Source of the DNA: Rheinheimera sp.
GTDB lineage: Bacteria; Pseudomonadota; Gammaproteobacteria; Enterobacterales; Alteromonadaceae
DNA length: 10,000 nucleotides
Reading direction: 5' to 3'
Assembly (NCBI RefSeq): GCF_020217005.1
Contig: NZ_JAIWOI010000341.1
Span: 1-10,000 of the forward strand
Under the pieces are notes generated by a model. That model was not told the DNA's origin. It worked only from the letters and a program-made list of their open reading frames with translations, and ran no database searches. Made by a program: the position numbers and the translations under genes. Shown here piece by piece: positions 9,581-10,000 of this stretch; within the stretch, counting starts at the first letter, position 1; every line of letters starts with the position of its first letter.

Positions 9581-10000
9581 TCTGTCCGTATTGTTATCTG
9601 TCCGTGTTCCACGTGAAACAATGCCGGATTTAGATCCGGTATTGCTGGCAAAACCTGGTCAGTATTAATCGCTGAAATAAATACCTGCGAATTAATAGTG
9701 TTTAAAAAACTAAATATATGACGCTTGGAATTATCGTCTAATTCCGAGGCCAAATCATCAATTAATAACACCGGCTGTTTATGGCCATAGTTATAAATCA
9801 CGTTACTTTGCGCCACTTTCAGCGCAAAGAGTAATACCTTCAGTTGCCCACGCGACAACACTTCTTCTACAGCCTGGCCTGCCACCTTCAGCTTTAAATC
9901 CGCCTTCTGTGGGCCAAACTGACAATGTCCTAAGCGCAAGTCCTGCAGAAAATTTTGCTGCAGTAGCTGCTGTAACTGTTCAGGCTTTTCGATACGTTCT
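9577..10000 (-). CDS. recF: RecF, DNA repair SMC/ABC-type ATPase (3' end only)
   Basis: C-terminal 140 residues of RecF, which works with RecO and RecR to load RecA at single-stranded gaps and stalled forks. E. coli RecF has 357 aa, so about 60% lies beyond the right edge; the reading frame is open to base 9999 and the TTG at 9937-9939 is an internal Leu. The ABC signature motif is visible as [13 protein letters not shown], followed by Walker B and D-loop [12 protein letters not shown], then the conserved SQVFISAI. The preceding GPQKADL corresponds to GPHKADL in E. coli. The stop codon overlaps the gyrB start by four bases (ATGA), so the two are translated from one message, as in the usual dnaA-dnaN-recF-gyrB cluster; dnaA and oriC are therefore expected a few kb past the right edge. 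The last codons carry a parS site. Confidence 0.96.
9605..9620. other. parS, chromosomal ParB-binding site within recF
   Basis: TGTTCCACGTGAAACA on the + strand matches the bacterial chromosomal parS consensus TGTTNCACGTGAAACA at all 15 defined positions. It is a near-perfect 16-bp palindrome: the arms differ only at positions 5 and 12. On the coding strand it covers the recF codons for LFHVE and the first base pair of the next His. ParB (Spo0J) binds such sites, spreads by CTP-dependent clamping and loads SMC/MukBEF-type condensins or guides ParA-driven segregation. The expected place, near oriC, agrees with the recF-gyrB context. Confidence 0.88.

Follow-up and report, generated by a model that had tools for sequence, protein, structure and literature searches.

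The recF-gyrB junction of this Rheinheimera genome raises the question of why a 16-base sequence resembling a bacterial centromere lies within a protein-coding gene, and whether it is kept there as DNA or for the peptide that it encodes. The analysis indicates that these bases are very probably a chromosomal parS, one of two in recF, which would serve the ParABS segregation of the origin region; the binding of ParB and a function in segregation are assigned by analogy with P. aeruginosa. This reading is supported by a partner site, the parAB genes, the position near oriC, synonymous constraint and co-occurrence with ParB.

In the window, i.e., the whole stretch of 10,000 nucleotides that was analysed, the plus-strand sequence TGTTCCACGTGAAACA (site B, Table 1) shows zero mismatches to the parS consensus TGTTNCACGTGAAACA. 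On the minus strand, it is read in frame as (C)TG TTT CAC GTG GAA CA(C), corresponding to residues 353-358 (LFHVEH) of the 366 residues of RecF. The listed gyrB start leaves 24 bases between site B and gyrB, and the next in-frame ATG, at 9574, would leave 30. The full-consensus match, the coding frame with its LFHVE peptide and the distance to gyrB thus agree with the initial annotation. A scan of the window allowing up to three mismatches gave three matches (0.47 expected), two of which are site B on both strands; the match at 2691-2706, with three mismatches, was rejected as a site. The best named RecF matches (95-96% identity) belong to Rheinheimera species and one MAG.

Table 1. Features at the recF-gyrB junction, in window coordinates.
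Feature	Coordinates	Strand	Remarks
parS site B, near-palindromic, 3' end of recF (codons LFHVEH)	9605..9620	.	exact consensus match; exact in 28/28 close relatives
recF, 3' part	9577..10000	-	gene extends into the adjoining chunk (C363) as far as base 677 there; holds site A in that part
gyrB	7154..9580	-	follows recF with an ATGA overlap; listed as context

A scan of the whole genome (3.92 Mb in 379 pieces), proposed in the initial annotation, found exactly two zero-mismatch parS sites, both within recF; the second one had been missed. About 0.007 exact matches are predicted by chance (15 defined bases, both strands, 3.92 Mb). The second site, site A (G000:C363:244-259), lies outside the window, at window coordinates 10244-10259 by joining, and is located 639 bp from site B, upstream in recF. 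It also encodes LFHVE (residues 140-145). The 10-kb chunks are considered to abut because the 366-residue RecF frame is unbroken across the joint. Apart from this pair, the only candidate that came up in the genome within one mismatch was a parS-like sequence, TGCTTCACGTGAAACA, with a single mismatch, after glmU (G000:C66:3438-3453; L003 1501-1516). Since chunk C364 ends just after atpA and C66 begins in atpD, this sequence is probably located on the far side of the atp operon. Identical letters occur in four of 12 other Rheinheimera genomes (G404, G407, G411 and G413); in three of these four, the sequence shares a contig with recF, at a distance of 48-50 kb.

As for the partner genes, parA and parB were found adjacent to each other (C364:6198-7896), and ParB scored 192 bits with TIGR00180 (family cut-off 58.45). 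The gene order is gyrB-recF-dnaN-dnaA ... mioC-[three DnaA boxes]-gidA-gidB-parA-parB-atp, where the names, except that of parB, are those that we take the recognised translations to represent. In the joined chunks of this draft of 379 pieces, both recF sites lie approximately 13 kb from the mioC-gidA DnaA boxes and approximately 17 kb from parB. The cumulative GC-skew minimum is at 34.8 kb of the joined 42 kb, close to the same boxes. The presence of parB beside parA, near gidAB, and the origin-proximal context of the parS pair were therefore as the initial annotation had anticipated.

The distribution of the sites was analysed in 220 recF genes from 220 genomes, namely, the 110 best-scoring of 276 genomes in a class sample (not a random draw) and 110 genomes from an order sample of 130, of which 126 had a RecF match. 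According to a search with the ParB of the present genome, 190 of them bear ParB and 28 do not (22 without a match and six with weak matches, E 1e-8 to 5e-19), while two further genomes (E near 1e-24/1e-25) were kept as a separate category. Allowing up to one mismatch, a recF site was present in 176 of the 190 ParB-bearing genomes (exact in 141; 14 of the 190 recF genes lacked a site) vs. five of the 28 ParB-less genomes (exact in one, G114) and neither of the two in the separate category. Among the 190 genes, site A was present at this threshold in 123, site B in 165, and both in 112; 80 of 84 ParB-bearing families contained at least one genome with such a site. These co-occurrence figures hold much shared descent, since ParB changes only five times on the FastTree RecF tree (motif columns removed), which gives four to five independent pairs, none opposing, a number that cannot reach 0.05.

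Genome-wide searches for the exact degenerate consensus TGTTYCACGTGRAACA were tallied by hand from the result tables. In the order sample, 99 of 101 genomes with a strong ParB match carried it somewhere vs. 0 of 29 with a weak match or none, and the backward control gave 0. In the class sample, where the search was exact only, it was found in 176 of 257 ParB-bearing genomes, two of 14 without ParB and one of five with weak ParB, so that approximately one third of the ParB-bearing genomes lacked it under this search; the total was 179 of 276 genomes vs. one of 276 for the backward pattern. Outside this class, recF was examined in 20 of 104 genomes belonging to other classes of the phylum; none of the 20 genes showed a site at up to three mismatches, though exact parS was present elsewhere in 14 of these genomes. 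The recF location thus looks specific to Gammaproteobacteria in these samples.

Three ParB-less genomes (G282, G358 and G383; L241, L243 and L252) share the sequence TGTTCCGCGTGGAACA at the position of site B, one base off parS, and this sequence is likely a relic. Across recF-dnaN, G343, which belongs to this group, is an 86.4% match to E. coli, and its family is probably Enterobacteriaceae. This family is named as lacking par genes in the accessible text of one report (PMC3909081). Several genomes showed individual features. In G114 (L123), an exact recF site was found and no parB; the assembly is fragmented, and parB may be missing from it. Family f27 (L199/L172/L125) includes one ParB genome with an exact site and two small ParB-less genomes with sites of one to two mismatches. 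G338 contains three exact parS within approximately 640 bp at recF (G338:C23:52313, 52538 and 52934), one more than the usual pair. In G277, whose genome has no recF site, nine one-mismatch parS-like sites, mostly T-ending, are located within approximately 2 kb (G277:C3:54284-56366).

Conservation of the letters themselves was assessed first among the 28 close relatives, drawn from Rheinheimera, Alishewanella, Arsukibacterium and MAGs; 21-60% of their same-residue recF codons differ from those of the window gene. Site B fits TGTTYCACGTGRAACA in all 28, and site A fits it exactly in 13 and with at most one mismatch in all 28. In addition, 144 recF columns were scored, defined by a residue common to at least half of the 190 ParB-bearing genes. 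The seven strongest synonymous constraints belong to V356, V143, H355, H142, V140, E357 and E144, all of them in sites A and B. Free synonymous drift of these bases, which the initial annotation had named as evidence against a parS, was consequently rejected, the parS codons being the most constrained in the gene. A further 79 named loci, seeded partly on the peptide FHVEHGQI, served for codon drift and examples and not for frequencies. By these alignments, the putative parS is conserved as DNA beyond coding need.

An alternative is a parS whose main selected role would be the tuning of gyrB, or of the recF-gyrB operon, through ParB spreading. We consider this improbable, although site B is only 24 bases from gyrB and an excess of ParB in P. 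aeruginosa lowers gyrB about 2-fold, the neighbouring genes being lowered as well, according to the part of the report available (PMC5521831). In the same partial text, strains lacking parB or parS show expression changes in PA0010-PA0015 alone, which lie near the intergenic parS3/parS4, and genes near the recF sites are unresponsive at the native ParB level. In Caulobacter, gyrB transcription was unchanged by parS inserted nearby, as far as the accessible sections indicate (PMC5815017). The idea of the initial annotation that ParB spreading could affect gyrase expression is thus unsupported at native ParB levels by the portions of the P. aeruginosa and Caulobacter work available. In addition, site A, some 640 bp farther from gyrB, is equally constrained, and an element tied to gyrB alone was rejected on this basis.

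Selection at the protein level only, in which LFHVE is required by RecF at both places and produces the parS match incidentally, appears very improbable. Similar peptides do end some RecFs of other classes (e.g., AFHVED and TFHVES), and F and H of site A are largely kept in ParB-less RecFs too. However, codon usage falls far short of explaining how firmly the synonymous letters are fixed. Where the peptide is [LVM]FHV[EK], all four choice codons are of the parS type in 121 of 130 genes at site A (3.4 expected) and in 136 of 151 at site B (6.9 expected); the expectations derive from codon use in the same genes, with small per-gene backgrounds and pseudocounts in the joint test. This codon evidence, which pools related genes, is independent of the ParB co-occurrence figures, and peptide-only constraint was rejected on it. 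Moreover, FHV[EK] occurs in none of the 28 ParB-less RecFs at site A and in three of 28 at site B. In the commonest site B peptides, residues vary as the free positions of parS permit: the first is L, M or V, the fifth is E or K, and the last is H or Q. Because parS lies in the gene, RecF would be limited to about [LMV]FHV[EK][HQ] at the sites; selection for the centromere probably fixes these RecF codons, and the residues as well.

A palindromic element of another kind, either an mRNA structure before gyrB or the site of a different DNA-binding protein, would be compatible with site B being near-palindromic and preceding a start codon, but site A, which is far from gyrB, has retained identical letters, and these match parS and go with ParB genome-wide, which makes this explanation still less probable than the preceding one. 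A chance match or neutral relic has a negligible probability: relics can evidently persist, as the likely one in some ParB-less genomes suggests, but here two zero-mismatch sites stand against the ~0.007 expected and the backward control of 1/276, ParB is present, and site B fits the degenerate consensus in 28/28 relatives despite the synonymous differences elsewhere in recF, so that chance was rejected.

With the two sequences taken as a parS pair, ParB made approximately 17 kb away beside parA would load at sites A and B. ParB at both sites would build the centromere complex of the origin region, approximately 13 kb from oriC, and ParA would move this complex, leading to segregation of the new origins. 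Loading of SMC at parS sites is also likely.

The presence of parS inside recF is already known from P. aeruginosa. What this analysis adds is the pair in Rheinheimera and, less expectedly, its extent across the class and an indication that selection for the centromere shapes the RecF peptide; a literature search of partial coverage found no paper on class-wide parS conservation in recF, so prior publication is possible. On balance, it seems rather likely that a double centromere was established within recF early in the evolution of Gammaproteobacteria and has determined the residues [LMV]FHV[EK][HQ] at two places ever since, with loss of ParABS followed by decay of both codons and peptide. 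The locus is a clear example of a chromosomal function under selection within a coding gene, with a probable effect on the encoded protein, and it offers a simple comparative test of what follows the loss of a centromere system. It also links a natural recF-gyrB location with an unexplained experimental hot spot in Caulobacter; if the early establishment in recF is true, the two together suggest the junction as a specially favourable address for a centromere.

The closest known system is that of P. aeruginosa, in which parS1 and parS2, the parS closest to oriC, are located within recF (PMC3909081, PMC5521831) and were tested and found functional (PMC3909081, PMC5521831, PMC4368675), according to the accessible parts of these reports; among the same partial texts, mutation of intragenic parS with the protein unaltered is described. 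In both organisms, two parS lie in recF near oriC and parAB is close to oriC; high affinity is known for the P. aeruginosa sites and is predicted here. Sites A and B in recF of P. kuykendallii have the published letters of parS1 and parS2. As far as the available descriptions allow comparison, the Rheinheimera pair differs in its distance from the origin (approximately 13 kb from the mioC-gidA origin vs. about 4 kb), in that site A ends in CA and not CC, and in that its genome yielded just one additional site at the one-mismatch threshold. As for Caulobacter, recF and gyrB fall within one of the two hot spots at which inserted parS accumulated, the cause being unexplained in the sections available (PMC5815017). 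The recF-gyrB region is thus a favoured parS location in both cases, whereas the Caulobacter parS were brought by a transposon. Compared with chromosomal parS generally, the Rheinheimera sites share the 16-bp consensus, the origin-proximal position and a parAB operon in the genome, but they are coding rather than intergenic and are doubled in one gene.
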